From NCBI GenBank assembly GCA_017519975.1, contig JAFWRM010000001.1, positions 1-64,000 of the forward strand: a stretch of DNA of 64,000 nt. Reading direction: 5' to 3'. The DNA comes from Oscillospiraceae bacterium. Its GTDB lineage: Bacteria > Bacillota > Clostridia > Oscillospirales > Oscillospiraceae. Shown here piece by piece: positions 15,430 to 64,000 of this stretch; the first letter of the stretch is position 1; every line of letters begins with the position of its first letter. A program made the position numbers and the translations under genes. Below the pieces are notes generated by a model that was not told the DNA's origin, made no database searches, and was given only the letters and a program-made list of their open reading frames with translations.

Positions 15430-18336
15430 TCAGCCGCCGCAGTCGGCGCACCCGGAACCGGTCACCAGATGGGACCAGTCGTCGGCGCTGTCGCTTACGC
15501 TGAAGCTCTCACCCTCCGCGCAGCGGGCGGCCGCCGCCAGCTGGGAGGCGTAGATCTCGTTGCGCTTTTCCGCGATCATCGCCTGGGTGATGTATCTTCC
15601 GTCTTCGGTATAGGCCTCTTCCTCCGGGATGCGTTCGATGCGCACGGCGCACACCTTGTACTCCGGCGCCCGCGCGATGCTGTCCAGCGCGTTGTTGGTC
15701 AGCCAGTTGCAGTTGCCGTCCAGGAAATGGAAGGGCATCCAGACTTCGCCCCGGCTCGTCTTATCGGAGACTCTGGCTTCCGACGAGATCGTGCCCCGGC
15801 GGGAGGATACGCGGATGCGCTCTCCGTCGCGGATGCCGGCTTCCGCCGCGTCCTCGGTGTTGATCTCTATGTAGGAGTGGCCGCTGATCTCCATCAGACC
15901 GGGGGTCTTGTCCGTCATTGCCATGGCGTTGTAGTGGTACAGATTGCGTCCCGTCATCATCAGCAGGGGGTATTCCTCATCCGGCAGTTCCTGCGAAGGC
16001 TTGTACTCCGCCAGATAATAGTCGCCCTTGCCTCTGCTGAACAGGCCCACGTGCATGATCCGGGTACCGGGATGATCCTTCGAGGTGCACGGCCACTGCA
16101 GGCCCTGCCCCGCGATCTCCGGGCTGTCCAGCCGTTCGTGGGATATGCCGGCAAAGGACGGCGTCACAGACGCGATCTCGTCCATGATCTGCGCGGCGGT
16201 CAGATACGGCTGAGGATAGCCCATCCGGTTCATGATATCCGTGAAGATATCCGTATCCAGACGCTGGTTCCCGGGCACCGTCACCGCCCGGCGCACACGC
16301 TGCACGCGGCGCTCGGAAGCGGAGAACGTACCCTCCTTCTCGGCAAAGGAGCGGCCGGGCAGGACCACGTCGGCCAGCTTGGCCGTTTCGGTCATGAACA
16401 GCTCGTCCACCACCAGGAAATCCAGACTCTTCAACGCGCGAAGCACGTGATGGGTGTCCGGATCGGTGCGCATCGGGTCCTCACCGAAGATGAACAGGCC
16501 CTTGATCTTTCCTTCGATCATGGCGGGGAAGCAGTCCGTGGCCTTGATACCGGGATTCGGATCCAGCGGAACGCCCCAGGCCTTCTCGAACTTCTCCCGG
16601 ATCTCGGGAACATGCACCTTCTGGTAGCCGGGATAATCGGTGGGCATGGCGCCCATGTCGCACGCACCCTGTACGTTGTTCTGTCCGCGGATGGGGTTCA
16701 CGCCGCATCCGGGGCGGCCCAGTTTCCCCGTCACCATTGCGAGGTTGGACAGGGACATGACGCCTTCCGTACCGGTGGAATGCTCGGTAACGCCGAGGCA
16801 ATACAGAATGGGAGCTCTGTCGGCTGTCGCGTACAGACGGGCTGCCGCACGCAGATCATCGGGATCCACATGGCAGATCCCGCCGACATACTCGGGGGTA
16901 TACTTCTTTACAAGTTCCTTCAGCTGAGCGCATCTTTCGGCGTCCGTACGCGTTTCGATGAACTCCCTGTTCTCCAGACCTTCCTCGAAGATCACGTGGA
17001 GCAGGCCGTTGACGAAAGCCACGTTGGTGCCGGGCTTCAGCTTCAGGTGGATATCCGCCTGCTTGGCCAGGTCGATATCGCGGGGATCGGCGACGATCAG
17101 TCGGGCGCCTCTGCGCACCGCCGCGCGCAGCTGCATGCCGAGGACCGGATGCGCCTCTTCAGAGTTGGAGCCGACGATCATGATCACGTCGGATTCCTGT
17201 GTGATATCCTGCACGGTGTTGGTCATCGCGCCGGAGCCCAGAGTTGTCGCCAGACCGGAGACTGTCGGGGCGTGTCAGACGCGCGCACAGTTGTCGGTGT
17301 TGTTGGAACCGAAGGCTGTGCGGACCATTTTCTGCAGCATGTAGATATCTTCGTTGGTGCTCCGGGAACAGGCAAAGCCTGCCAGAGCATTGCCGCCGTA
17401 CTCTGCCTTTATCACGGAGAAGCGGCTCGCGACCAGATCCAGCGCCTCGTCCCAGGAGGCCTTGCGGAACTCGCCGGTCGCGCGGTCCCGGATCAGAGGA
17501 TCGGTAAGCCGGTCTCCGGAGGAGACGAACTTATACGATCCGAACCGGCCCTTGACGCACAGCCTGCCGCGGTTGGTCGGGCCGTCGGCCCCCTCCACGT
17601 CCAGGATGCGGTTGTCTCTGACCAGCAGATCCATCTGGCAGCCGATGGCGCAGTGGGGGCAGGTCGTCCGGACCCGCTGCACGTCCCAGCTCCGGTAATC
17701 CCGGGAGGGCTTCTTGAACAGCGCGCCGGTGGGGCACGCCTCGGCACAGTTGCCGCAGGATTCGCACAGCGTCTGCTTCCAGTCCTCCCCGAAGGGAGCG
17801 CCGATCACGGTAAAGGTGCCGGCTTTCTTCAGTTCGATGGCCTTGCGCCCGCTGACCTTTCCGCACGCGGAAACGCAGCGCTGGCAGTGGATGCAAAGAT
17901 CCGGCCGGTAGCCCAGGAAGGGATTCTCCGTCTTTTCCTCGGCGGGAACGTCCGCCCGGGTGCCGACGTAGGTGGTGTTGCATACGCCGTATTCGTTGCA
18001 TACGGCCTGCAGTTCGCACACGCCGTTGGACGGGCACGAAAAACAGTCCTGATGGTGGTTGGAAAGCAACAGGTCCAGGACCGTTTTCCTGGCCTCCACC
18101 ACCCGCGGGCTCATGGTCTGAACGACCATGCCGTCCCTGACCGGGGTGTTGCACGCCGTGGGAAGCTTGTCCATGCCGTCCACTTCCACTACGCAGAGGC
18201 GGCAGGAGCCGACGTTGCTGACGTTCTCCAGCCAGCACAGGGTCGGTATGCGTATGCCGTTTTCCCGCGCCGCCTGCAGAATGGTCCTGCCTTCCTCGAC
18301 CGATACCGTTCTGCCGTCTATGGTTATGGAGATCAT
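15430..18336 (-). CDS. fdhA: Selenocysteine-containing formate dehydrogenase, molybdopterin subunit with NuoG-like N-terminus
   Basis: A 968-residue Mo/W-bis-MGD oxidoreductase interconverting formate and CO2. The frame crosses one TGA (17277-17275) at residue 354, in NCARV-U-HAPTV, the position of the catalytic selenocysteine in E. coli FdhF. Domains in order: a [2Fe-2S] ferredoxin (Cys34, 45, 48, 62), a His-Cys3 [4Fe-4S] site (His95, Cys98, 101, 107), a two-cluster ferredoxin (Cys148-158 and 191-201), the active-site [4Fe-4S] (Cys226, 229, 233, 260), and the catalytic and cofactor-binding domains. The extended N-terminus belongs to NAD(H)- or hydrogenase-linked forms, but no NuoE/F-like partners lie next to it. 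The start at 18336 was chosen by domain length; an ATG at 18348 directly abuts AGGAGG. Confidence 0.95.
17240..17277 (-). promoter_or_regulatory. SECIS element of fdhA
   Basis: Immediately 3' of the TGA, GTCTCC (17262-17257) and GGCGAC (17251-17246) form a stem with one mismatch closing a GGTCT apical loop (17256-17252). Exactly 18 nt separate the TGA from the loop, the same as in E. coli fdhF, whose loop also contains GGUCU. This is the RNA that SelB binds to recode UGA. Confidence 0.9.
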
Positions 18337-18428
18337 CTTCCGCTGCATCCTCCTTTCTACTGACGCGGGCCGCGCGGAACGCGTCCGCCGGGCCGCCGGG
18401 AATGCGCCCGCCGTCCGGCGGGCAGGGG

Positions 18429-23348: not shown

Positions 23349-23365
23349 ACCAGACACCCGAACAG

Positions 23366-23403
23366 AAAACGCTCTCCCCGGCGGCCGCCGGGGAGAGCGT
23401 TTT
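23366..23403. terminator. Bidirectional terminator between selD and the SDR gene
   Basis: A perfect 38-base palindrome (two 19-base arms, 23366-23384 and 23385-23403) beginning with A4 and ending with T4, followed by CCTTTTTCC. It serves both convergent operons. Confidence 0.93.
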
Positions 23404-23426
23404 TCCTTTTTCCGTGCTTTTCCGAT

Positions 23427-24188
23427 TCAGTTGCTGATGGTCACGCCGCCGTCGATCACCAGATTCTGGCCCGTAACGAAGGAGGATTCGTCGGAGCCCA
23501 GATACACGGCGCCGTAGGCGATGTCTTCCGGCTCGCCGAGACGGCCCACCATGCACACGGTGTCGATCATGCCCTGCTGGGCCTCCTTGCTGTTCTTCAC
23601 CCAGTCCGGCGTCATGTTCGTGTTGATGGGGCCGGGCAGGATGCAGTTCACGCGGATGCCCTTGCGGGCGAACTCCTTGGCCACGTTCCGAGAGAGGTTG
23701 GTCACGGCCGCCTTCATGGCGCCGTAGAAATAGGCGTTCACCTCTGGCCAGACGGAGGAGATGGAGGCCACGTTGATGATGTTGCCGCGGCCGGCCTTTA
23801 CCATCTCCGGGATGAAGGCCTGCATCGTCCAGATGTAGGCGCGGCAGTTGGTCTGGGTGATGAGCTCGAAATCCTCGTCGTTCTGTTCCAGGAACGGCTT
23901 GTGCACCAGCACGCCGGCGCAGTTGAACAGGATATCCACCCGGCCGTACTTTTCATAGGCGGCGTTCTTCAGGTTCTCGATATCCTCCTTCTTCGTCACG
24001 TCACAGCGGACGAACACGGCCTCACCGCCGTTTTCACGGATCTTCGCGGCGGTCGCTTCTCCCTTTTCGGCGTTGCGGCCCACCAGCACGACGCTGGCGC
24101 CCTCGGCGGCGTACATGACGGCAACGGCTTCCCCGATGCCGGAGGTGGCGCCGGTCACTACGGCGACCTTGTCCTTCAGTCTGTTCAT
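23427..24188 (-). CDS. Short-chain dehydrogenase/reductase of the AOR operon
   Basis: A 253-residue classical SDR. The cofactor loop is TGATSGIGEAV, NCAG replaces the usual NNAG, and the catalytic Ser lies in NVASISSVW with YxxxK as YFYGAMK. The C-terminus ends GQNLVIDGGVTISN, like FabG and hydroxysteroid dehydrogenases. It follows the AOR-family gene by 20 bases. The trio suggests linked aldehyde or acid and alcohol or ketone redox on one substrate; the substrate is not readable. Confidence 0.9.
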   Translation of the reverse strand: MNRLKDKVAVVTGATSGIGEAVAVMYAAEGASVVLVGRNAEKGEATAAKIRENGGEAVFVRCDVTKKEDIENLKNAAYEKYGRVDILFNCAGVLVHKPFLEQNDEDFELITQTNCRAYIWTMQAFIPEMVKAGRGNIINVASISSVWPEVNAYFYGAMKAAVTNLSRNVAKEFARKGIRVNCILPGPINTNMTPDWVKNSKEAQQGMIDTVCMVGRLGEPEDIAYGAVYLGSDESSFVTGQNLVIDGGVTISN

Positions 24189-24208
24189 GGCATTTTACCC
24201 CCTGTGTA

Positions 24209-26392
24209 TCATTCATTTGAAAGGCCGGCCCGCGCCTGTCTTTCTTTTCTGCAGTTTTCGACGAAGAGCACCCGGGGAGGCTCTCCGTAGTCCCGCGGTC
24301 CAGGCTTCGGCCGTTCGGGCAGAAGCCCCAGGCTTTCCATGCGGTCGGCCACGTCGGCCAGGCCGTGCGCCTCGTACGTTTCCCGGTACGGCCAGCCCGT
24401 CGCCGGATCCCAGCCTCTGGCTTCATACACCAGATCCACCATCTCGTTGAACTGCTGCCAGTCCGCGGTCTCGTTCCAGGAATCCGGGATCGACACGACC
24501 CGCCATATCTCCTCGATCTCCCGGCGGCGGGTCCGCCCGTGGTTGCGGATGAGGATGGCGCGGAACAGCAGTTTCGACCGTTCGGCCGCCCGCGTCAGTT
24601 CCTCCGGCGTCATGGCGTATCCCGTAGCGGCGGTGAACATCTCCGCTTCCATCTCCGGCCACCAGGGATGCGGGCTCTGCCACTCACAGCTCATGACGGA
24701 GTCCTTGATCTCGGCGTTGTTCTGCACGTTGATGATGGCCTCGATCAGGTGCGGGCTGTGGTAGGGATCGGCCATGGCCTCCTCGTGGTACTCAAATTTG
24801 CTGTGGAAATGCTCCACCGTATTGGCGTCCCGGGTGGACAGCATGCGGTTGATGTTGGCGGCCAGCCACGTGGGCTTTTCCACGCTGCCCTCGTAGCCGC
24901 GGCCCTGCCAGTGCACGCTCTGCCCCCAGCCGCCGTGAAGGCTGACCGGGATGTCCAGCCGCTGCCCGTCCAGCTCGGCGGAGTATCTGCCGTGGTAGAT
25001 CGATTCGCTGAATTTCTCATACCCCAGCTTCCGGATGGCCCGCGCCATGCCCTCGGCAAACAGGTCGCCGTAGTATCCGCGCCGTTCCACCAGGTTCAGC
25101 AGGAAGGTCTTCAGGAATTCCAGATCCTCCACATCGGGCGTACGCCCCGTACCGAGGTCGCTGCCCTCCAGCAGGCCTTCCTTCGCGCACATGGCCAGCC
25201 ACGTCAGCAGCCACACGTCGATCTCCCATTTATCGATGCCGTAGTCGTTGCAGATGTCGTTGATGACGGTCCCGCGCTCGTAATCCGGCTTCCAGAGGTT
25301 GTAGACGTCCGGCCGGATGGGCTTGGCCTGGGCCTCGAAATCCGGATCGGAGAAGTCCGGCTCCGGAAAATCCCGCCCCAGCAGCTTGCAGGGCGCGCAG
25401 TAATTTTTCTCCGTCGGCCAGAACTGCCCCACGGTGGCCGGCAGATCCGTCTGCCAGTTGTAGGTGCTCGTGCTGACGCACTTTTCAATGTGATTGGCGC
25501 TCCCTCCGTCCGCCGTCGGTCCGTTCATCATCAGGGCGTTGCAGCGCTGATTGCAGCCGGGGGAGCAGGCCACGTTGCCGCGGTCGTACTTCACGTCGAA
25601 TTCCGCGCCGGGAACGCCGAACTTTTCCAGATGCAGCACCGGCGAAGGCCGCATGCTGGGATTGTTCATGTGCAGGCGCAGATACAGCAGCTTGTCGATG
25701 TCCGCCGGCACCACCACTCCGGTACCGTGCACCGTGATGGCCTTGAGCTTCTTGCTGCCCCACACGGCGCCGAAGCCGCCCTTGCCGAACACGCAGTCGT
25801 TGGCGGAGGTCACGGTGGCCAGGCGCACCAGCTTCTCCCCCGCCGGTCCGATCACCATGGACTTGAACTCCCGTCCGTATTTTTCCTCCAGAGCCCGCTG
25901 CGCATCATGCACGCGCAGGCCCCACAGGTCGTCCGCCGGAAGGATCTGAATGTCGTCGTCTTCGATCCGGATGTGCACCGGCCGTTCGGCCCTGCCCTGG
26001 ATGATGAAGCCGTCGTACCCGGCGTACTTCAGTTCGGTGGCGAACCATCCCCCGATGTTGCCCCAGGTGAACTGCTCCGGATCTACGGCGGCGCCGACCG
26101 CACCGGCGGCGCTGCGTCCGCCCGCGGGGATGCCCGTTCCGGTCGTGGGCCCGTTCATGTAGATGAACTTGTTGGCCTCGTCGAACGCCCCCACGCCGGG
26201 GCCGACCTCATCCCAGAAGATGCGGTTGACGATCATGCGGCCGCCCACGTATTCCGGCACGTAGCGGTAGGTATCCAGCGTGGAGATCTCGCCGGTGGTC
26301 AGATCGATGCGCGCGATGCGCCCGCTGTAGCCGTACAGGCCCCTGGTGTTGGCGGGGTTTTCGAGAATGTCTTTTTTCGTATAATTCGGCAT
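24209..26392 (-). CDS. Aldehyde:ferredoxin oxidoreductase family protein (long, YdhV-like)
   Basis: A 727-residue tungsto/molybdo-pterin enzyme family member, longer than the roughly 610-residue classical AOR and close to YdhV (about 700). The N-terminal domain begins YSGRIARIDLTTGEI and holds GPTTGTGIPAGGRSA. The cluster ligands read ACSPGCNQRC, a C-x3-C-x3-C spacing instead of the classical C-x2-C-x3-C, with a later Cys in SVMSCEW. A ferredoxin gene lies 12 bases upstream, as YdhY lies beside YdhV. It should oxidise aldehydes or reduce acids at low potential with ferredoxin; the actual substrate is unknown. Confidence 0.9.
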   Translation of the reverse strand: MPNYTKKDILENPANTRGLYGYSGRIARIDLTTGEISTLDTYRYVPEYVGGRMIVNRIFWDEVGPGVGAFDEANKFIYMNGPTTGTGIPAGGRSAAGAVGAAVDPEQFTWGNIGGWFATELKYAGYDGFIIQGRAERPVHIRIEDDDIQILPADDLWGLRVHDAQRALEEKYGREFKSMVIGPAGEKLVRLATVTSANDCVFGKGGFGAVWGSKKLKAITVHGTGVVVPADIDKLLYLRLHMNNPSMRPSPVLHLEKFGVPGAEFDVKYDRGNVACSPGCNQRCNALMMNGPTADGGSANHIEKCVSTSTYNWQTDLPATVGQFWPTEKNYCAPCKLLGRDFPEPDFSDPDFEAQAKPIRPDVYNLWKPDYERGTVINDICNDYGIDKWEIDVWLLTWLAMCAKEGLLEGSDLGTGRTPDVEDLEFLKTFLLNLVERRGYYGDLFAEGMARAIRKLGYEKFSESIYHGRYSAELDGQRLDIPVSLHGGWGQSVHWQGRGYEGSVEKPTWLAANINRMLSTRDANTVEHFHSKFEYHEEAMADPYHSPHLIEAIINVQNNAEIKDSVMSCEWQSPHPWWPEMEAEMFTAATGYAMTPEELTRAAERSKLLFRAILIRNHGRTRRREIEEIWRVVSIPDSWNETADWQQFNEMVDLVYEARGWDPATGWPYRETYEAHGLADVADRMESLGLLPERPKPGPRDYGEPPRVLFVENCRKERQARAGLSNE

Positions 26393-26404
26393 GCCTTCGC
26401 CCCC

Positions 26405-26941
26405 TTACCTTCCCTCCGGACGCACTCCGTCCGGAAGCAGCACGGAACCGCTGCTCAGGCCCAGGCACTGCACGGGGCACCATCGGATACACTGTGGGCC
26501 GTCCGGGTTGCCCCGGCACAGGTCGCATTTGACCGCTTTCCACTTCTTCCGGTCGCGATCCCTTTTCATGGAGATGCGGGAGGGCGTAAAGCGGCACGCG
26601 CGCATGCATTTTCCGCAGCCGATGCAGTTTTCCTCATCCACGTAGACCACGCCCGTTTCCGGATCGACGCACATGGCGCTGTCCTTCTTCGGGCAGGCCT
26701 CGTAACACGGCCGGTCGGCGCACTGCTGGCACGCCAGCACCGTGTGGACCATCGACCGGGCGTCCAGGTCCACCTGAATGCGGCTGTTGCTGCGCCCCGT
26801 GACTCCTTCATGGCTCAGTCCGCACACGATCGTGCAGGACACGCAGCCGGTGCAGAAGGAATACTCCGGAGAATACTGTACGATATGGTCGCCGCAGGAA
26901 AACTCCTGTCCCGCCGCGCTGCCTCTGCTTTCTTCGGGCAC
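26405..26941 (-). CDS. 4Fe-4S ferredoxin-type electron-transfer protein for the AOR
   Basis: A 178-residue iron-sulfur protein with an array of Cys motifs: CTGCVSCTIVC, CQQCADRPCYEACP, CIGCGKCMRACR and CDLC...CIRWCP. This is the four-cluster layout of the HycB/DmsB/YdhY family, adapted to an AOR partner. I chose the GTG at 26941 because AAAGGGGTGGGG precedes it and the family begins shortly before the first cluster; the frame is open further up but overlaps the promoter. It is the first gene of the Fd-AOR-SDR operon. Confidence 0.87.
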   Translation of the reverse strand: MPEESRGSAAGQEFSCGDHIVQYSPEYSFCTGCVSCTIVCGLSHEGVTGRSNSRIQVDLDARSMVHTVLACQQCADRPCYEACPKKDSAMCVDPETGVVYVDEENCIGCGKCMRACRFTPSRISMKRDRDRKKWKAVKCDLCRGNPDGPQCIRWCPVQCLGLSSGSVLLPDGVRPEGR

Positions 26942-26971
26942 GGTCCCCACCCCTTTCTGTTTTCCGTAAAA

Positions 26972-27001
26972 AGTATACCCGTCCCGCGCGACTTTTGTCA
27001 A
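26972..27001 (-). promoter_or_regulatory. Promoter of the Fd-AOR-SDR operon
   Basis: Perfect TTGACA (26996-27001), 18-base spacer and TATACT (26972-26977) on the minus strand, about 30 bases before the GTG start. Confidence 0.8.
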
Positions 27002-27045
27002 TGCGCCGCAGTCCTCGCGCCGCGCCGGAAAAGCCCCCTTCGCCC

Positions 27046-27072
27046 TTGCGCTTTTCCGCGATCTGGTATAAT
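27046..27072 (+). promoter_or_regulatory. Promoter of the MFS transporter
   Basis: Perfect TATAAT (27067-27072) with a weak TTGCGC at 27046-27051 and a 15-base spacer. It diverges from the AOR operon promoter. Confidence 0.5.
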
Positions 27073-27103
27073 CTTTACAGAAAAACGAGGAAGGACCGTC
27101 CCC

Positions 27104-28306
27104 ATGAAACAAACGTATTCCCGCTACCGCTGGGTCATTCTCCTGCTGGCGTTCATCCCGCCCACGCTGCTGACCCTGTGCCAGTATCAGTCCACCGCGT
27201 ACGCGCCGGAGCTGATGCGTCAGTTCTCTCTGACCGACCAGCAGTACACCACCGTGGCCACGGCCCCCATGCTGCTGGGCGTATTCATCAGCTTCCTTGC
27301 CGGGACCATGGGCGACCGCTTCGGCGTGAAGAAGACGGTCACCGTGGCCGTGATCATCTCCGCGCTGTGCGCCCTCGCCCGGGCTTTCGTCAGCGGTTAT
27401 CCCGGCCTGCTGGCCGTCACCGTGCTGATGGGGTGCGTCGGCGTTGTGATCAATTCCAACAACGCCAAGATCATGACGGGCTGGTTCCCTCCGGCTCAGC
27501 TGGGCCTGGCCATCGGCCTTGTAGCCTCCACCGGCAACTCCGGAACCATCATCGCCATGGCTCTGGGCAAGAGCCTGAGCCCCTCCGTCTCAACGGCGTT
27601 TCTCTGCAGCGGCATCGCCTTTGCCGTCGCCGCCATTCTGTGGATCCTGCTGTTCCGGGACCGTCCGAAAGGGAGCTCCCCGGACGAAAAGATCCCCGAC
27701 AGCCGTCCAAAAACGCGGCTTGGCGCCGTTCTGAAGAACCGCACCGTATGGACCGCCGCGCTGGCCGCCGCCTTTTTCATGTGCGTGAACATTTCCGTTT
27801 CCGCCCTTGTCAGCCCCGGTCTGGTGAAGCGCGGAGTGTCTGACGCCTCCGCCAATCTGACCATCGTGATCTTCTCCGTCGCCGCGCTGGCCGCTTCCGT
27901 GCTCATGCCCGGCCTCATCGCCAGGACGAAGAACACGAAGATCACGTGCGCGGTGCTTTCCGTTCTGGCGGGAGCGGCCCTGTACGCCGGCTGGCGGACG
28001 GATTCCATCCTCCTGTGCGATCTTCTCATTCCTCTGTGCGGGCTGTGCCTGGGCGGCCTGCTGCCCACGCTGCTTTCCATTCCCGCCGTTCTTCCGGAGA
28101 TCGGGCCGGATTCGATCGGCGCCGCGGGAGGCCTGATCACCACGGTGATGATGGCCGGCGCTTTCCTCCTGCCCTCCTACGTCGTCACCCCCATTGCCGG
28201 CGGCATCAACGATACGGCCTTCCTTCTGCTGCTGATCGCGTCCGTGATCCTGGGGGCCGTCTTCCTCCTCCTGCCCAACGTCAGCATCCGCAGGGCCGCC
28301 GACTGA
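27104..28306 (+). CDS. Major facilitator superfamily transporter
   Basis: A 400-residue protein with twelve predicted helices in two halves joined by a charged loop near residues 188-208. The MFS signature between helices 2 and 3 reads GTMGDRFGVKK. The N-terminal segment and the Asn-rich helix (GVVINSNNAKIMTGWFPP) recall nitrate/formate-oxalate type anion antiporters, but the substrate cannot be read with confidence. It diverges from the AOR operon, so it may import or export that pathway's acid. An ACGAGGAAGGA site precedes the start. Confidence 0.86.
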   Translation: MKQTYSRYRWVILLLAFIPPTLLTLCQYQSTAYAPELMRQFSLTDQQYTTVATAPMLLGVFISFLAGTMGDRFGVKKTVTVAVIISALCALARAFVSGYPGLLAVTVLMGCVGVVINSNNAKIMTGWFPPAQLGLAIGLVASTGNSGTIIAMALGKSLSPSVSTAFLCSGIAFAVAAILWILLFRDRPKGSSPDEKIPDSRPKTRLGAVLKNRTVWTAALAAAFFMCVNISVSALVSPGLVKRGVSDASANLTIVIFSVAALAASVLMPGLIARTKNTKITCAVLSVLAGAALYAGWRTDSILLCDLLIPLCGLCLGGLLPTLLSIPAVLPEIGPDSIGAAGGLITTVMMAGAFLLPSYVVTPIAGGINDTAFLLLLIASVILGAVFLLLPNVSIRRAAD

Positions 28307-29179: not shown

Positions 29180-29986
29180 TCATCTTGCGTACAGCAGCCC
29201 CACCAGCCAGTTCACCAGCCGCACCGGCAGCAGCTTGATCAGCACGCACAGGACCTTATAGGAAAAGCCCAGCGCCATGACGGGCTTGCTGTTTTTTCTC
29301 ATGGCGACGGAGGCGATCATCCGCCCCGCCTTCTCCGGCGCCATCCCGCCGCGCTCGTCCTTTTCCATGCCGGCCACGCTGCGGGCGATGCGCCCGCCGT
29401 AGGCATCATCCCCCTCGGGGTTCTTGCGCCGCGCGTCGGTGAAGCCGGTTCGGATGTCCCCGGGCTGCACCGCGCAGACGGTCACGCCGTAGGGGCGCAC
29501 CTCATTGGCCAGAGCCAGCGAATAGTCGTTGATGGCGGCCTTGCTGCAGGAATAAAAGGTCTGAAACGGGATGGCGGCGGGCGCCGCCACGGAGCTCACG
29601 TTCACGATGCGGCCGCAGGCGCGTCGGCGCATGGAGCCCAGCACCGCGCGTGTCACCGTGGCCATGCCGAAGAAATTCACGTCCATCTGACGGCGTGCTT
29701 CCTCCATGGGGGTGAACTCCACCGCGCCGGAAATGCCGAATCCGGCGTTGTTGACGAGCACGTCGATGTGCCCGACCTCGTCCAGGATCCTGTTCACCGC
29801 TGCGGTCACGGCGTTCTCATCCGTCACGTCCACGCTGAAATGCCGGACACCGTCGGGGCCGCCGGCCTCCCGACGGCTGAATTCATATACCGTGCAGCCC
29901 CTGTCCAGCAGGCACTGACATACGGCTCTGCCGATGCCGGAGGAGCCCCCCGTCACCAAGCAGATCTTCGCCGTTCCGGCGTTCAC
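29180..29986 (-). CDS. SDR oxidoreductase, ketosphinganine-reductase-like by context
   Basis: A 268-residue classical SDR with TGGSSGIGRAV, VNNAGFG, Ser in NVSSVAAP and the catalytic Tyr/Lys in YSCSK. The last 30 residues are hydrophobic (SYKVLCVLIKLLPVRLVNWLVGLLYAR region), which suggests membrane association, as in 3-ketodihydrosphingosine reductases and some lipid-modifying SDRs. Its ATG overlaps the stop of the serine-palmitoyltransferase-like gene (ATGA), so the two act together. That enzyme would make a 3-keto sphingoid base and this SDR would reduce it. The assignment rests on context. Confidence 0.82.
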   Translation of the reverse strand: MNAGTAKICLVTGGSSGIGRAVCQCLLDRGCTVYEFSRREAGGPDGVRHFSVDVTDENAVTAAVNRILDEVGHIDVLVNNAGFGISGAVEFTPMEEARRQMDVNFFGMATVTRAVLGSMRRRACGRIVNVSSVAAPAAIPFQTFYSCSKAAINDYSLALANEVRPYGVTVCAVQPGDIRTGFTDARRKNPEGDDAYGGRIARSVAGMEKDERGGMAPEKAGRMIASVAMRKNSKPVMALGFSYKVLCVLIKLLPVRLVNWLVGLLYAR

Positions 29987-31173
29987 AGTTCGTACCGGCT
30001 CAGGACTTCGGCGATGATGTCCACCGCCTCGTCGATCAGCTCATGGGTGTGGCTGGCCATCAGGCTGGTGCGCAGCAGACACTCGTGCGGAGCGGTCGCC
30101 GGGGGCAGCGAGCTGTTGACGTACACGCCGTGTTCGTAAAGATCCTTCGCGATGGTCAGCGTCGGGATCTCTTCATAGGTGTAGATCGGGATAATGGGGA
30201 CGACCTTCCCGTTGGACGGGCGCATCTTGATCTGCTTTTCGTCCAGCCTCTGGCGCATGTACAGCGCGTTGCCCTGGAGCTTCTCCACCAGTTCCGGATG
30301 AGCTTCCAGGATGCGCAGGGCCGTCAGCGCCGCCGCCGCATTGGCGGGCGGGATGCTGGCTGAGAAAATGAAGGGCCGGGAGCTGTGCTTCACATAGTGC
30401 ACGACGCGCTCAGACGCCGCCATGTAACCGCCCAGGGACGCCAGAGATTTGGAGAAGGTGCCCATGTAAATGTCCACCTGGTCTTCCAGTCCGTAGTAGC
30501 TGGCGGTACCGCGGCCGCCCTCGCCGATCACGCCGAGGCCGTGGGCGTCGTCGACCATGACCCGGGCGCCGTACTGTCTGGCCAGACGGCAGATCTCCGG
30601 CAGGTTGGCAATGTCGCCCCCCATGGAGAACACGCCGTCCGTCACGATCAGGCAGCCCTTGTCCGCGGGCACACGCTGCAGCTTGGCCTCGAGATCGGCC
30701 ATGTCGTTATGCTCATACCGCAGCATCTTGCCGTGGCTCAGCCGGCAGGCGTCGTACAGACTGGCATGGTTCTCCTTGTCCATGATGACGAAATCGTTCA
30801 GCCCCACGACGGCGCTGATGATGCCCAGGTTGGTCTGGAACCCCGTGGACAGCGTGACGACCGCTTCCTTGCGCAGGAACTTTGCCAGTTCCGCCTCCAG
30901 CTCGAGATGGAGCTTCAGCGTTCCGTTGAGGAACCGGGAGCCGGAACACCCGGAGCCCAGGGTCCGGTACGCCTCCATGCCCGCTTCGATGACTTCGGGA
31001 TGCGTGGTGAGCCCCAGATAGTTGTTGGATCCGAGCATGATGCGGCGTTTGCCCTCCATGATGACCTCGGTATCCTGCTTGCTTTCCAGTGCGTGGAAAT
31101 AGGGGTATATGCCCTTCTCCATGATCTGATCGGCCAGATCGGGCTTATAGCACTTTTCAAAGATATCGATCAT
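29983..31173 (-). CDS. Alpha-oxoamine synthase, serine palmitoyltransferase-like
   Basis: A 396-residue PLP enzyme joining an amino acid to an acyl thioester with loss of CO2. Visible features: GSGCSGSRFLNGTLKLHLE near 73-91, the ring-stacking His136 in ENHASLYD, DDAHGLG (208-214) and the PLP Lys242 in GTFSKSLAS, followed by SSRPFIFSASIPP. Serine palmitoyltransferases of Bacteroidetes carry GSRFLNGTL and RPFIFSASIPPA, whereas glycine C-acetyltransferase has GSGVRFICGT. Serine with a fatty acyl thioester is therefore the favoured reaction; KBL or BioF remain alternatives. The start at 31173 has GGAGG eight bases ahead. Confidence 0.82.
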   Translation of the reverse strand: MIDIFEKCYKPDLADQIMEKGIYPYFHALESKQDTEVIMEGKRRIMLGSNNYLGLTTHPEVIEAGMEAYRTLGSGCSGSRFLNGTLKLHLELEAELAKFLRKEAVVTLSTGFQTNLGIISAVVGLNDFVIMDKENHASLYDACRLSHGKMLRYEHNDMADLEAKLQRVPADKGCLIVTDGVFSMGGDIANLPEICRLARQYGARVMVDDAHGLGVIGEGGRGTASYYGLEDQVDIYMGTFSKSLASLGGYMAASERVVHYVKHSSRPFIFSASIPPANAAAALTALRILEAHPELVEKLQGNALYMRQRLDEKQIKMRPSNGKVVPIIPIYTYEEIPTLTIAKDLYEHGVYVNSSLPPATAPHECLLRTSLMASHTHELIDEAVDIIAEVLSRYEL

Positions 31174-31265
31174 ACAATGAACCTCCGTTACCTGCAATGC
31201 GAAACCCTTCGCGCTCAGACCGGCTCTCTCTTCTCTCTCTTTTCTTTTGTCCGATCTGAGTGTTT

Positions 31266-52131: not shown

Positions 52132-54138
52132 TCACATGTAAACGGCGGCGTTGAATCCGGTGTGCACCGCGTTGGCGACGTTGGCAGGGCCGCTGGCGTC
52201 CCCGACGATCCATACCTCCGTAGCCGGGGCACACCGCCGAAGGGCGTCCACAACGTCTGTCCTCGGGCGCATGCCCGTGGCCAGCAGCACCGTATCGGCC
52301 GGTATTTCCACCGTTTCCGATCCGCGGCGGCAGAGCACGGCGTCTCTGCGGATCTCCGTGAGCGTCTGGCCCAGTCGGAACTGAACTCCTCCGTCTTTCA
52401 GGACCTTCATCACCTGCGTAAAGGAGGCTCCCAATCCTCCCCGCAGACCGCCTCTGGCGGAACTGAGATCCTCTTCCATGGCCACAACAGCAGGGACCAC
52501 TCCTTTTTTCACCAGCCCGTAGGCACACTCCATGGCCACGGAGCCCGCACCGACGATCACTACGCTGCCTTCGGCTTTTACCAACCCCAGGTCCGCTTCC
52601 GGCGCCCAGTGCACGTGCGGAAGATCCACCCCCGGCACGGGAGGCACGGCGGGAACCGCGCCGCACGCGATGATGAGCCCATCGTACGCTTCATGCTCCA
52701 GCTGCTCCGCCGTGGCGGGCGTATTCAGGCGGATCTCGATCCCGGAGGTCTCCGCCCTCCTTACGATGTAGTTCAGGTAGTTCCTCAGATCCTGTTTCAG
52801 CGGCTGCACCCCGACGGCGTTGTTCAGATTGCCTCCCAAACGGGAGGACGCTTCATACAGCGTTACCTCATGCCCGCGATGGCAGAGCACAGCTGCTGCC
52901 TCCAGGCCGGCCGGTCCTCCGCCGACCACCGCGATGCGCTTCCGCGTTTCCGCCTTCGGCACGATGCCCGCGGGGAACTCCACGCCTCGACCAAGAACGG
53001 GATTGACCGCGCATTCCGTCGTCCTCTTTGCCACAAGTCTGTCGCTGCAGTGCCCGCACCGAAGACAGGGCCGCACCGTATCCGGTCTGCCCAGCGCGTA
53101 CTTTCGGGGCATTTCCGGATCTGCCATGAACGGCCGCGTCATGCATACGATGTCCGCGCACCCCTCCGCCAGGATCCTTTCGGCGTTGTCTATGTTCATG
53201 ATGCCGGCAACGGCGCTCACAAGAACGGACTCCGGCAGCAGATCTCTGAACACTTTGGCATACTTCACATTTGCCATGTGCGGGGATGCGTAGGGATTCA
53301 CCCAGTAATGCATGCAGTCGAACTTGCCTCTCACGCCGGCGGATACGTTCAGAACGTCGATCCTGTCCTGCAGCATCTGCACGTAGGTCTTCGTCTCCTC
53401 CAGGTGCATGCCGCCCTCCAGCATCTCGTCGGCGGACACCCGGAACACAATCACAAAATCCTCTCCGCATCGTTCCCGCACGCCGTCCAGGATCTCCCGG
53501 GCAAAGCGGGCGCGGTTTTCCAGACTCCCGCCGTACTCGTCCGTCCGCCGGTTGAAATACGGAGAAGAGAACTGGCCGATCAGATTCGCGTGACCTCCGT
53601 GTACGATGACTCTCCGGACGCCTGCCTGCTTGCATCGGACGGCGGCGGCAATGTATTTCCGTACCGCATCCTTCACCTGTTCGTGGGTCATCGCCTCCGT
53701 CATCACCGGCTCCCGCCCCTGCGCACTGGCTCTGGCCAGTTCGAAATCCGAATACCCCGGAGACGGCGCGATGGGCGGCCTGCCGGTCTTTTCGCAGTTG
53801 GCGTCGTTGCCCGTATGATTCAGTTCCACGGCGGGCTCGCATCCGAACTGCCGGCACATGTCCGTGAACCTGCTCAGGGGCAGGATCGTCTCATCCGTAT
53901 CCAGTCGAAGCTGACGCTCCTCATCGTGGCCGACGTCATAATCCACCAACGCGTTGCCGATGGTGATCACGCCAACTCCTCCCCGGGCGATCGGGCGGAA
54001 GAAATCTACGCACTCCCGGGTCATGAATCCGTTGACGTCCGTAAGCGCCGGAGACGACGGCGTCATGACGAGGCGATTTTTGAATTCGATCCCCCGAATG
54101 GTGACAGGGGAAAAAGTGAGGGGGTATTTCTGTTTCAT
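52132..54138 (-). CDS. NADH:flavin oxidoreductase / 2,4-dienoyl-CoA reductase-type enoate reductase
   Basis: A 668-residue three-domain protein. The N-terminal FMN barrel (about 1-340) carries VHGGHANLIGQF and YFNRRTDEYGGSLENRARF. An iron-sulfur segment, CLRCGHC plus a later Cys (TECAVNP), is followed by FAD/NAD(P) domains with GGGPAGLEAA and VIVGAGSVAMECA. This is the FadH/BaiCD/enoate reductase layout, passing electrons from NADH over FAD and 4Fe-4S to FMN to reduce a conjugated double bond. The Cys spacing (C-x2-C-x2-C) is one residue shorter than usual. It is monocistronic. Candidate substrates are enoates or steroids. Confidence 0.92.
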   Translation of the reverse strand: MKQKYPLTFSPVTIRGIEFKNRLVMTPSSPALTDVNGFMTRECVDFFRPIARGGVGVITIGNALVDYDVGHDEERQLRLDTDETILPLSRFTDMCRQFGCEPAVELNHTGNDANCEKTGRPPIAPSPGYSDFELARASAQGREPVMTEAMTHEQVKDAVRKYIAAAVRCKQAGVRRVIVHGGHANLIGQFSSPYFNRRTDEYGGSLENRARFAREILDGVRERCGEDFVIVFRVSADEMLEGGMHLEETKTYVQMLQDRIDVLNVSAGVRGKFDCMHYWVNPYASPHMANVKYAKVFRDLLPESVLVSAVAGIMNIDNAERILAEGCADIVCMTRPFMADPEMPRKYALGRPDTVRPCLRCGHCSDRLVAKRTTECAVNPVLGRGVEFPAGIVPKAETRKRIAVVGGGPAGLEAAAVLCHRGHEVTLYEASSRLGGNLNNAVGVQPLKQDLRNYLNYIVRRAETSGIEIRLNTPATAEQLEHEAYDGLIIACGAVPAVPPVPGVDLPHVHWAPEADLGLVKAEGSVVIVGAGSVAMECAYGLVKKGVVPAVVAMEEDLSSARGGLRGGLGASFTQVMKVLKDGGVQFRLGQTLTEIRRDAVLCRRGSETVEIPADTVLLATGMRPRTDVVDALRRCAPATEVWIVGDASGPANVANAVHTGFNAAVYM

Positions 54139-60929: not shown

Positions 60930-61955
60930 TCAGACGGGATCGCTCTTCTGTCCTTTCTCTTCTCTGTCCAGTTCCAGCCGGCTTCCGGAGCCCGCGACGG
61001 CGGGCAGGCCGTATTCCGCCCGCATCAACTCCGCAAGATGCAGCAGTTCCGCCTCCCATACTTCTCGCTCCGGGGTCGGATAATCCTCGAAGGGATACTG
61101 CCGTCGGAGGGACTCATACTTTTCAGTTCCCATCCGGCGGTAGGGCAGCAGCTGCCAGGCGACGATGTTTCCCTTCAGCTCATCCCGAAGGAACGCGCCG
61201 GTGCGGCGGATGTTCTCCTCATCGCTGTTGTAGCCGTGGACGACCGGCGTGCGGATCACCAGTTTCGTCCCCAGTTCGAAAGCTCTCCGGATATTGGCCA
61301 GGATCTGCCGGTTGCTCTGACCAGTCAGGGTCTCGTGCGTGGTCGGATCCATATGCTTGATGTCCGTGATCAGCAGGTCCACATAGGGCAGCACGGCCTC
61401 CATGTGCTCCATCGGTACGCACAGGGCGGATTCCACACAGGTGTTGATTCCTTCCTCACGGCAGGCCTGCAGCAGCATGCGCACAAATTCCCACTGCACC
61501 AGTGCTTCCCCTCCGTTCAGAGTCACTCCTCCGCCGGTACGGCGGTAAAAGCTTTCGTCAGCCCGTATCACGGCCATCAGCTCTTCGATGGTCTTATCCT
61601 CGCCCCAGCTCTTTATGGCGTGATTCGGGCACACGTCGGCACAGCGCATGCAGCCCACGCATTTTGTTCCGTCCGTGACGGCAATGAGCCCCTCGCTGTC
61701 AAATACGAGAGGCGCCCCGCCCTGAGAGCACGCCCGTATGCACCAGCCGCATTTGTCCTTCGTCATGCATTTGGAAGGGTAGAATCCCAGTTCCCGCCCC
61801 GGGCGGATGGTCTCCGGATTGGAGCACCACAGGCAGTGCATGGTGCATCCCTTGAAGAATATCTCCGTCCGAATGCCCGGTCCGTCATGAATGGTATAGC
61901 GCTGGATATTGGTTACGCGGCCGACCGGCCGCCCCTCCTTGTCGTGGTAAAGCAT
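60930..61955 (-). CDS. Glycyl radical enzyme activating enzyme (radical SAM)
   Basis: A 341-residue radical SAM activase that installs the glycyl radical on the enzyme encoded upstream. The SAM cluster motif is C-x3-C-x2-C in GCTMHCLWCSNP. An inserted two-cluster ferredoxin domain follows (CMTKDKCGWCIRAC and CVGCMRCADVCP, about 50-105), as in activases of decarboxylases and dehydratases but not of pyruvate formate-lyase. GGVTLNGGEALVQ is the SAM-binding stretch. AAGGAG lies eight bases before the start. Confidence 0.94.
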   Translation of the reverse strand: MLYHDKEGRPVGRVTNIQRYTIHDGPGIRTEIFFKGCTMHCLWCSNPETIRPGRELGFYPSKCMTKDKCGWCIRACSQGGAPLVFDSEGLIAVTDGTKCVGCMRCADVCPNHAIKSWGEDKTIEELMAVIRADESFYRRTGGGVTLNGGEALVQWEFVRMLLQACREEGINTCVESALCVPMEHMEAVLPYVDLLITDIKHMDPTTHETLTGQSNRQILANIRRAFELGTKLVIRTPVVHGYNSDEENIRRTGAFLRDELKGNIVAWQLLPYRRMGTEKYESLRRQYPFEDYPTPEREVWEAELLHLAELMRAEYGLPAVAGSGSRLELDREEKGQKSDPV

Positions 61956-61973
61956 GTGATGACTCCTTATCGA

Positions 61974-62006
61974 AAAGCCCTGCGGCGTCGAAGTCTGCAG
62001 GGCTTT
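61974..62006 (-). terminator. Hairpin between the glycyl radical enzyme and its activase
   Basis: A 10-bp perfect stem AAAGCCCTGC/GCAGGGCTTT (61974-61983 with 61997-62006) and TTTTC on the minus strand. As an intercistronic attenuator it would make the activase less abundant than its enzyme. Confidence 0.65.
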
Positions 62007-62019
62007 CCTTTCTGTTCAT

Positions 62020-64000
62020 TCAGTCGAAACTGAGAGACGTACGCCCGATGATGTCATCCTGCAGCGCGCGGTTCAGCTCAACGAAGTAGGCGCTGTAGCC
62101 GGCTACGCGCACCAGCAGATCCCTATAATCCTCCGGATGCTTCTGCGCGGCCAGGAGTGTCTCCTGATTGGCCACGGTAAACTGACTGTGCATGCCCTTG
62201 CGCCGGATGTACTCATCCATCAGCGCGATGAAATTATCGCGGCCTGTCTCTCCCACCAGCGTATTGGGGGAGAATTTCCAGTTCAGCAGCGTTCCGTTGG
62301 TAGCGCGGGCGTGATCCAGCTTGGTCACGGATTTGCAGATGGCTGACGGTCCGTTTACGTCGTGACTGCAGCACTTCGTATGCACCGCTCCCATGCAGTC
62401 GGACACCGGCTCGAAGGCCTTGCGGCCGTCGATGCTTGCCCACTGATTCTGCCCGTGCGCCACGTTCACGGTCACGGAATAGGCGCCCGGCTGGAAGAAT
62501 CCGCCGTGGGCGTTCTTTCTATGCTCGATGTGTCTGCACCAGGTATCCATCGCGAACCTGGTCAGGCGGTCGGCATAGTCATCGTCGTTTCCGTAGTGAT
62601 GCACCCGATCGGAGTTCACATAGGCGTACAGGGCCTCGTAGCCCTCCCAGTTCGCTTTTACGGCGTCCAGCAGTTCCTTCCCGGTGACCATCTTCTCATC
62701 GAACACCAGCTGCTTTATGGTGCTCAGTCCGTCTCCCGCGGTCCCGATCCCCACGCCCTGCGGGCCTGTGAAGTTATATTTGGTGCCTCCCATGGTCACG
62801 TCCGTGCCATTTTCGACGCAGCAGTCCATCAGGATGGACAGGAACGGCAGCGGACGTACGGCCTGATGAGCCAGATCCACCGCGTTGAGCAGTGCCACCT
62901 GACGGTCACACCAGTAGGCCATCTGACGATCGTAGGCCTCCAGCACCTCGTCGAAGGTCTTCATCGTTTCAAGGCTGCCGGTGGCCAGACCAAGCCTTTT
63001 CCCCGCGCCGGCACACTGTGCCCAGCGGGGGCATTCACGGGTGCAGTGATAACAATACCCGTCGTTGACGGCCAGTTCCAGCACCCGGGCGATGTTCATG
63101 TGCCCGCAGTCTTTCCATCCGTAGCTCTTGCCGGAAACGTCCGGCTCCACGCACCCTACCACCTGGTAATTTCTGGCGTCGGTCAGATCCACATGGCTTG
63201 TCAGCATGCTGGGAATGGCCACGTCGTCGTTGAATATCTTGGGCTCTCCCGTTCCCAGCCGGATCACATTGGCCGTTTTTACTTTCAGTTCCCACGGCGT
63301 GTCCGCGTGCATGCGGACAGCCAGCCATGGACAGGGCAGCCGTGTGTGCACGTGAGCGTCCAGCACCATGAAGGTCAGATCGTTGGTGGAATCGAAGCCC
63401 TGTTCGTCCACCCCTCCCACCGTCAGCGCCGGTCCGCCGATGCCGCCGTTGCCGAAGGTCTTGATCAGCACATGGTTGCGCAGCTTGTTCAGATCCCATA
63501 TCTTGATGAAAAAGTTTTCGATCAGTTCCTGCATCTGCTCACGGGTAGCTTCCCCGCTTTCCAGATCGCGCAGGTAATAAGGGTACATGTACCGGTCGAA
63601 CCGGCCGTAGGAGATTGAGTGTCCGTTGCACTCCATGTGGATCATGCAGTTGGCGAGATTCACCAGCTGGAGAGCCTGCCAGAAGGTCTGAGGCGGCTGT
63701 ACGGAGATGACCCGAAGGTTCTCCGCCATTTTCCTCAGCTCCGCCGTCCTTGTTTCGTCCTTCTCTCCGTCCGCCGTCCGCTCCGCCAGTTCGGCATAGC
63801 GCAGCACGTGCCGGATAGCCGCCTCACAGGTGATGTGGGCCGCCTTCAGGAAGGTCCTTTTCCTTAGGGCATCCGGATCTGCGGGATTCAGTCCCTCCTC
63901 CGTGCTCTCGATCAGGCGCAGGATGCCGCCGAAACCGAGGCGGAACAGCCGCTCATAGTCCAGGCCGAGATGGCCGGCCCCGCAGAAGATGTAGGCGTCG
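62020..64000 (-). CDS. Glycyl radical enzyme, N-terminus beyond the window
   Basis: About 660 C-terminal residues are present; the frame runs to the right edge. The glycyl radical loop is VRVAGYSAYF, with the radical Gly codon at 62100-62098. The thiyl Cys and its base Glu are in VVGCVEP (Cys codon 63153-63151), the pattern of dehydratases, choline lyase and isethionate lyase-type enzymes, whereas pyruvate formate-lyase has two adjacent Cys. The neighbourhood GCVEPDVSGKSYGWKD does not let me fix the substrate. It acts with the downstream activase. Confidence 0.93.
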   Translation of the reverse strand, partial: DAYIFCGAGHLGLDYERLFRLGFGGILRLIESTEEGLNPADPDALRKRTFLKAAHITCEAAIRHVLRYAELAERTADGEKDETRTAELRKMAENLRVISVQPPQTFWQALQLVNLANCMIHMECNGHSISYGRFDRYMYPYYLRDLESGEATREQMQELIENFFIKIWDLNKLRNHVLIKTFGNGGIGGPALTVGGVDEQGFDSTNDLTFMVLDAHVHTRLPCPWLAVRMHADTPWELKVKTANVIRLGTGEPKIFNDDVAIPSMLTSHVDLTDARNYQVVGCVEPDVSGKSYGWKDCGHMNIARVLELAVNDGYCYHCTRECPRWAQCAGAGKRLGLATGSLETMKTFDEVLEAYDRQMAYWCDRQVALLNAVDLAHQAVRPLPFLSILMDCCVENGTDVTMGGTKYNFTGPQGVGIGTAGDGLSTIKQLVFDEKMVTGKELLDAVKANWEGYEALYAYVNSDRVHHYGNDDDYADRLTRFAMDTWCRHIEHRKNAHGGFFQPGAYSVTVNVAHGQNQWASIDGRKAFEPVSDCMGAVHTKCCSHDVNGPSAICKSVTKLDHARATNGTLLNWKFSPNTLVGETGRDNFIALMDEYIRRKGMHSQFTVANQETLLAAQKHPEDYRDLLVRVAGYSAYFVELNRALQDDIIGRTSLSFD

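Follow-up and report, generated by a model that had tools for sequence, protein, structure and literature searches.

The window covers 64,000 nucleotides of a gut genome of Oscillospiraceae type (2.36 Mb, with 95.9% completeness). In it, genes for a ferredoxin, an AOR/WOR-family protein and an SDR form an operon, from which an MFS gene diverges on the other strand. We consider it probable, though far from certain, that the operon encodes a cytosolic, Cys-ligated, ferredoxin-coupled WorLS enzyme performing a non-aldehyde reaction on an imported organic acid. On our best reading, the predicted enzyme is distinct from classical AOR, from YdhV and from benzoyl-CoA reductase.

Organization of the operon

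The three genes lie on the reverse strand, in the same direction and with short gaps between them. The first encodes a YdhY/WorS-like polyferredoxin (26405–26941; 178 residues, several Fer4 (4Fe-4S) models), the second the Cys-type AOR/WOR-family large subunit (24209–26392; 727 residues, AFOR_N and AFOR_C) and the third a classical short-chain dehydrogenase, SDR (23427–24188; 253 residues, adh_short/adh_short_C2). On the opposite strand, the gene of a putative organic-anion-type MFS transporter (27104–28306; 400 residues, PF07690, MFS_1) starts 162 bp from the operon. All domain matches are above the Pfam cut-offs (AFOR_N with E 7.5e-58, AFOR_C with 2.2e-32, adh_short, the 4Fe-4S models and MFS_1), and the AFOR_N match is the only one in the whole genome.

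A near-consensus sigma-70-type promoter (TTGACA-18-TATACT, 11 of 12 consensus bases; 26972–27001, reverse strand) precedes the ferredoxin gene, whose start is likely the GTG at 26941, judging from the start in relatives and a Shine-Dalgarno-like AAAGGGG. A strong 18-pair hairpin (23365–23404) ends the operon; placed between the SDR gene and the convergent selD, it is shared with the selenium operon as a probable bidirectional terminator. The preliminary description of this DNA had proposed such an operon facing an MFS gene: the open reading frames, promoter, terminator hairpin and gene order conserved in relatives confirm it, and the coordinates, lengths and cluster motif it reported all proved correct.

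Other genes of the window deserve mention. The selenium locus is complete, with yedE, yedF, selD and probable selA and selB. Beside the latter two, a formate dehydrogenase gene (15430–18348, reverse strand) carries an in-frame TGA at about 17275–17277 within CARV*HAPTV, where selenocysteine is usually found. At 29180–31197 (reverse strand), a serine-palmitoyltransferase-like gene (508 bits on NF047600, cut-off 640) and a 3-ketodihydrosphingosine-reductase-like SDR (253 bits, cut-off 400) stand back to back, possibly forming a sphingolipid module in this Oscillospiraceae genome. By eye, we also noted an OYE/2-enoate-reductase-type gene (52132–54138, reverse strand) and, at 60930–63999 (reverse strand), a gene resembling those of glycyl-radical enzymes, accompanied by that of its activase.

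Conservation of the gene neighbourhood

A pattern-based scan of 84,980 species, with one genome per species, retrieved 79 related loci. They are spread over Oscillospiraceae, Lachnospiraceae, Eggerthellaceae, Peptococcaceae, Eubacteriaceae and syntrophs, with Sporobacter termitidis, Acetobacterium wieringae and Syntrophaceticus schinkii among the hosts. The nearest relative comes from a sheep-rumen MAG assigned to the same genus, its AOR being 91% identical. Of the 79 relatives, 73 have the ferredoxin gene directly upstream of the AOR gene (within 500 nt), and 34 have in their locus an SDR with 49% identity or more to that of the window; the arrangement is therefore not due to chance. The conserved core is the ferredoxin–AOR pair, with the SDR usually added. 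This bears out the earlier view of a YdhY-like ferredoxin, an SDR and a transporter forming a module with an AOR-family enzyme.

The transporter had also been called anion-type. The sequence appears to warrant this at a generic level only: the TIGR00893, OFA and NarK models all score far below cut-off, and orthologues occur only in near relatives (87% identity in the same genus and 59% at locus L050, against 26–33% elsewhere). For the SDR, there was neither a PDB relative at E 1e-50 nor a plasmid match. Two genomes from a different family within the class have SDRs 75–79% identical to it. Next to one of them lies an AOR just 52% identical to ours; in the other genome, no AOR is found within the 12 kb examined, and the SDR (79% identical) sits with an aldo/keto reductase (L191:1972-4343). 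The latter case suggests that the SDR step can pair with an enzyme other than AOR.

The remaining neighbours vary by subclade: OYE-type reductases (near AOR in 17 loci), genes for LeuCD, methylisocitrate lyase, PrpF and MmgE, DMSOR-family enzymes, or gluconolactonase/aminotransferase genes. The substrate probably differs among subclades as well. At L093, L099, L103-L105, L107 and L119, AOR relatives are accompanied by LeuCD-like hydratase, methylisocitrate-lyase-like, PrpF-like, MmgE/PrpD and OYE genes and by TRAP transporters; these neighbours resemble the late steps of nicotinate fermentation, with no mutase seen at those loci. In Eggerthellaceae/Coriobacteriales (L054-L056, L059, L061, L073, L077, L120), the AOR gene lies near DMSOR-family molybdoenzymes, a small ferredoxin, an MFS gene and sometimes LuxR-type regulators; the dietary-compound reductases of these bacteria have a similar layout. 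Small proteins of about 60–100 residues recur near AOR or its SDR (L093:6740-7033, L094:12226-12408, L097:4328-4621, L191:2788-3093), by eye with antibiotic-biosynthesis-monooxygenase-like (dimeric alpha-beta barrel) folds. Two AOR genes are seemingly frameshifted in the deposited assemblies: L095:8105-10143 (Syntrophaceticus schinkii Sp3) and L110:10001-11691 (Pseudoflavonifractor phocaeensis An507).

Cluster motif and putative metal site

With its AFOR_N and AFOR_C domains and its AOR fold, the large subunit is a member of the AOR/WOR superfamily; the AF2 model (pLDDT 92.3) is matched by Foldseek to 1aor, 1b25 and 4z3w. The length of 727 residues is genuine: an apparent insertion of roughly 50 residues follows the proposed metal site, and the subclade to which this protein belongs has extensions at both the N- and the C-terminus. 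Residues C276, C280, C284, K304, C305 and C569 are invariant in all 63 full-length relatives, and with them the C-x3-C-x3-C cluster motif (C276/C280/C284; 25541–25567, reverse strand). Outgroups have C-x2-C-x3-C instead: 19 of 19 Glu-type AORs, 6 of 6 YdhV, and BamB. Both peculiarities singled out in the preliminary description, the length and the altered cluster ligands, are thus real. Selenocysteine within the AOR-like protein was considered and rejected: intact relatives contain no internal in-frame TGA, and the sel genes belong to an operon of their own, convergent with this one.

In the MAFFT E-INS-i alignment, C276, C280, C284 and C569 correspond to the four AOR cluster ligands (288/291/295/494), which leaves C305 as the remaining invariant cysteine. 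The K304-C305 motif (25478–25483, reverse strand) ends a modelled beta-hairpin (285–292, 298–303) and is followed by a helix. The position after the cluster-motif hairpin is occupied by the catalytic Glu313 (P-E-Y-E) in Pyrococcus AOR, a Glu kept in 19 of 19 Glu-type outgroup AORs from related genomes, by K321-C322 in BamB, as read from the recovered BamB sequence, and by N-T-C336 in YdhV. The third cluster cysteine is separated from the metal-site residue by 21 positions here (to C305), 22 in YdhV, 16 in BamB and 18 in PfAOR (to Glu313). In BamB and YdhV, Cys322 and Cys336 are named as ligands of tungsten and molybdenum, respectively; both clades are without the aldehyde-oxidising second shell, and a 2025 review confines the Cys ligand to them (PMC12096430).

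A global hhalign run against the YdhV profile aligns C305 with C336. One other hhalign mode placed it differently, and MAFFT puts C305 on neither C322 nor C336, with Glu313 falling instead near 349–353 and D349-P350 on P-E-Y-E; hence the equivalence, which rests on the KC motif, the hairpin spacing and the profile alignment, is not settled by sequence alignment. From this evidence we infer, with good support, that C305 is a metal ligand in place of the aldehyde-oxidase Glu, and that K304-C305 would be the equivalent of BamB K321-C322. An aldehyde, one of the substrates suggested initially, is then unlikely, because a Cys seems to replace Glu313 as in BamB and YdhV.

The MAFFT alignments could also be invoked for an alternative in which the enzyme, linked to ferredoxin, is an aldehyde oxidoreductase (or acid reductase) whose active-site loop is unusual. 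There, an alcohol brought into the cell would be oxidised by the SDR to an aldehyde, which the AOR-like enzyme would oxidise further to an acid. The AOR fold and the SDR+AOR order suit such a scheme, and the histidine at the PfAOR His448 position may be kept: two MAFFT runs pair it with H494 and three with H528, each of which is invariant. However, the positions so aligned by MAFFT have no conserved Glu (352–353 vary across the clade), the KC motif is invariant, and the phylogeny and FdhD association given below favour the YdhV side. We therefore regard aldehyde chemistry as unlikely and retain a Cys-ligated, non-aldehyde enzyme as the preferred reading.

Phylogeny and association with FdhD

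A phylogeny with YdhV, BamB and AOR had been proposed as a check, and it yields a monophyletic clade. In the N-domain tree, the clade (100/99) is separate from YdhV+BamB (96/92), while an AU test on the same domain does not reject a single Cys-type group (p 0.35). In a three-segment tree of 445 columns, which leaves out BamB, its sequence having been recovered in part, clade and YdhV come together, apart from all Glu-type AORs (100/97); this join meets two long branches and is absent from the N-domain tree.

FdhD is the sulfurtransferase of formate dehydrogenase. With its HMM, we found it in 14 of 79 clade loci, in all four YdhV-type loci scanned and in none of 19 Glu-type loci, a ratio that is indicative, as clade loci are phylogenetically non-independent and many end at contig ends. 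The annotated E. coli ydh locus has no FdhD within 20 kb, bringing the YdhV-type total to 4/5. At locus L057, from the window's own subclade, FdhD directly follows AOR. A formate-dehydrogenase-type gene is nearby in only 1 of the 18 FdhD-bearing loci; the other 17 are without one. The operon of the window has no FdhD gene next to it, and the genome encodes a formate dehydrogenase that needs FdhD too. The association agrees with a predicted Cys-type, sulfur-rich metal site; a possible need for FdhD was suggested earlier for the Cetobacterium clade-41 enzyme (PMC13328260).

As for the metal, the genome contains ModABC with MoaA and MoeA, and TupA, for tungsten uptake, was not found in it by protein or by NF041772; Mo and W are thus both possible. 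Tungsten-specific uptake was dropped as a clue to the metal.

FdhD linkage, a Cys-type site, a length near 700 residues and a YdhY-like ferredoxin directly upstream would also be expected of a YdhV-like respiratory reductase with membrane partners supplied in trans. We find this highly improbable: the protein scores 250 bits on NF007354 against a cut-off of 868, the clade is separate and monophyletic, the operon has no membrane subunit, and the ferredoxin start shows on inspection no twin-Arg or signal-like (Tat-like) sequence. Given this start and its 16 cysteines in four cluster motifs, the ferredoxin and its partner fit instead the cytosolic layout of class II WORs (WorLS), as defined in PMC13328260.

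Proposed function

We now propose that the AOR-like protein (WorL) and the four-cluster ferredoxin (WorS) form a cytosolic two-subunit oxidoreductase of a distinct WOR-family clade. Its bis-pterin Mo or W would be bound by C305 of the protein, replacing the aldehyde-oxidase Glu, and would probably carry a sulfur ligand installed by FdhD. Electrons would be exchanged with ferredoxin, in low-potential chemistry that is most likely other than aldehyde oxidation, for instance reducing or dehydroxylating an organic acid that is unsaturated or aromatic; a rearrangement is also considered. The divergent MFS transporter would import the compound, and the SDR would interconvert an adjacent alcohol/ketone step. 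An acid was another of the substrates initially suggested; in other subclades, the genes nearby belong to organic-acid pathways or encode TRAP transporters and OYE-type reductases. The third, a steroid, was rejected, with no supporting neighbour gene.

A dearomatising reductase similar to class II benzoyl-CoA reductase, acting on a free aromatic or heteroaromatic acid, would share the KC motif of BamB, and the nicotinate-like neighbours of some subclades point the same way. These neighbours are, however, absent from the window, no CoA ligase or BamC-I complex is seen, and the BamB proton relay (Glu251, His255, Glu257, His260) has no conserved counterpart, there being no invariant or near-invariant Glu or His between 245 and 276; we give this alternative little credence.

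A bolder form of our proposal is possible but doubtful: a third Cys-ligated Mo/W lineage of the AOR family, in which maturation by FdhD would yield a formate-dehydrogenase-like Cys + sulfido site. In bacteria of guts, including those of termites, and of digesters, it would carry out a new ferredoxin-driven reduction of acids derived from plants or lignin. If the Cys-ligated reading is true, this widespread clade, FdhD-linked, with the same Cys signature as BamB and YdhV and a changed cluster motif, would extend the non-aldehyde branch to many gut and digester Clostridia and Coriobacteria. Sulfuration of AOR-family cofactors by FdhD would then become testable, with a bearing on the function of E. 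coli YdhV.

Comparison with known systems

E. coli YdhV/YdhY (class V WOR, clade 41; PMC13328260, PMC12096430) is similar in its large subunit of about 700 residues, upstream ferredoxin gene, metal-position Cys (C336, the proposed equivalent of C305), FdhD linkage and position in the three-segment tree. It differs by 28% identity, CX2CX3C and the Tat/membrane partners YdhWXUT, none of which is in the window's operon; bis-MPT Mo is shown for YdhV only. BamB of class II benzoyl-CoA reductase (PDB 4z3w) shares the AOR fold and a KC motif with the W-ligating Cys322, but has CX2CX3C, proton-relay residues and the BamC-I complex, and is separate in the N-domain tree.

Pyrococcus furiosus AOR and FOR (PDB 1aor, 1b25) have the same fold and pterin-binding N-domain (Foldseek TM 0.76–0.80 on target). 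Unlike the clade, they have no small subunit and are about 110–120 residues shorter. The clade also falls outside AOR sensu stricto: Glu313 of PEYE has no conserved Glu counterpart under either alignment, and C-x2-C-x3-C is replaced. Class II WORs (PfASOR, clade 40, and CbGOR, clade 20) share the cytosolic WorL + WorS with four [4Fe-4S], but these two characterised members oxidise aldehydes or sulfonates (PMC13328260).

A role is known for only 5 of the 92 WOR clades (PMC13328260), and our sequences probably sit among the uncharacterised class II clades of that scheme. In the open-licence literature, which is weak evidence in this respect, we found no paper on the clade itself. The superfamily and the two-subunit layout are already known; the new part, which we did not find described, is the combination of a separate clade, C-x3-C-x3-C, the KC metal motif and FdhD linkage.
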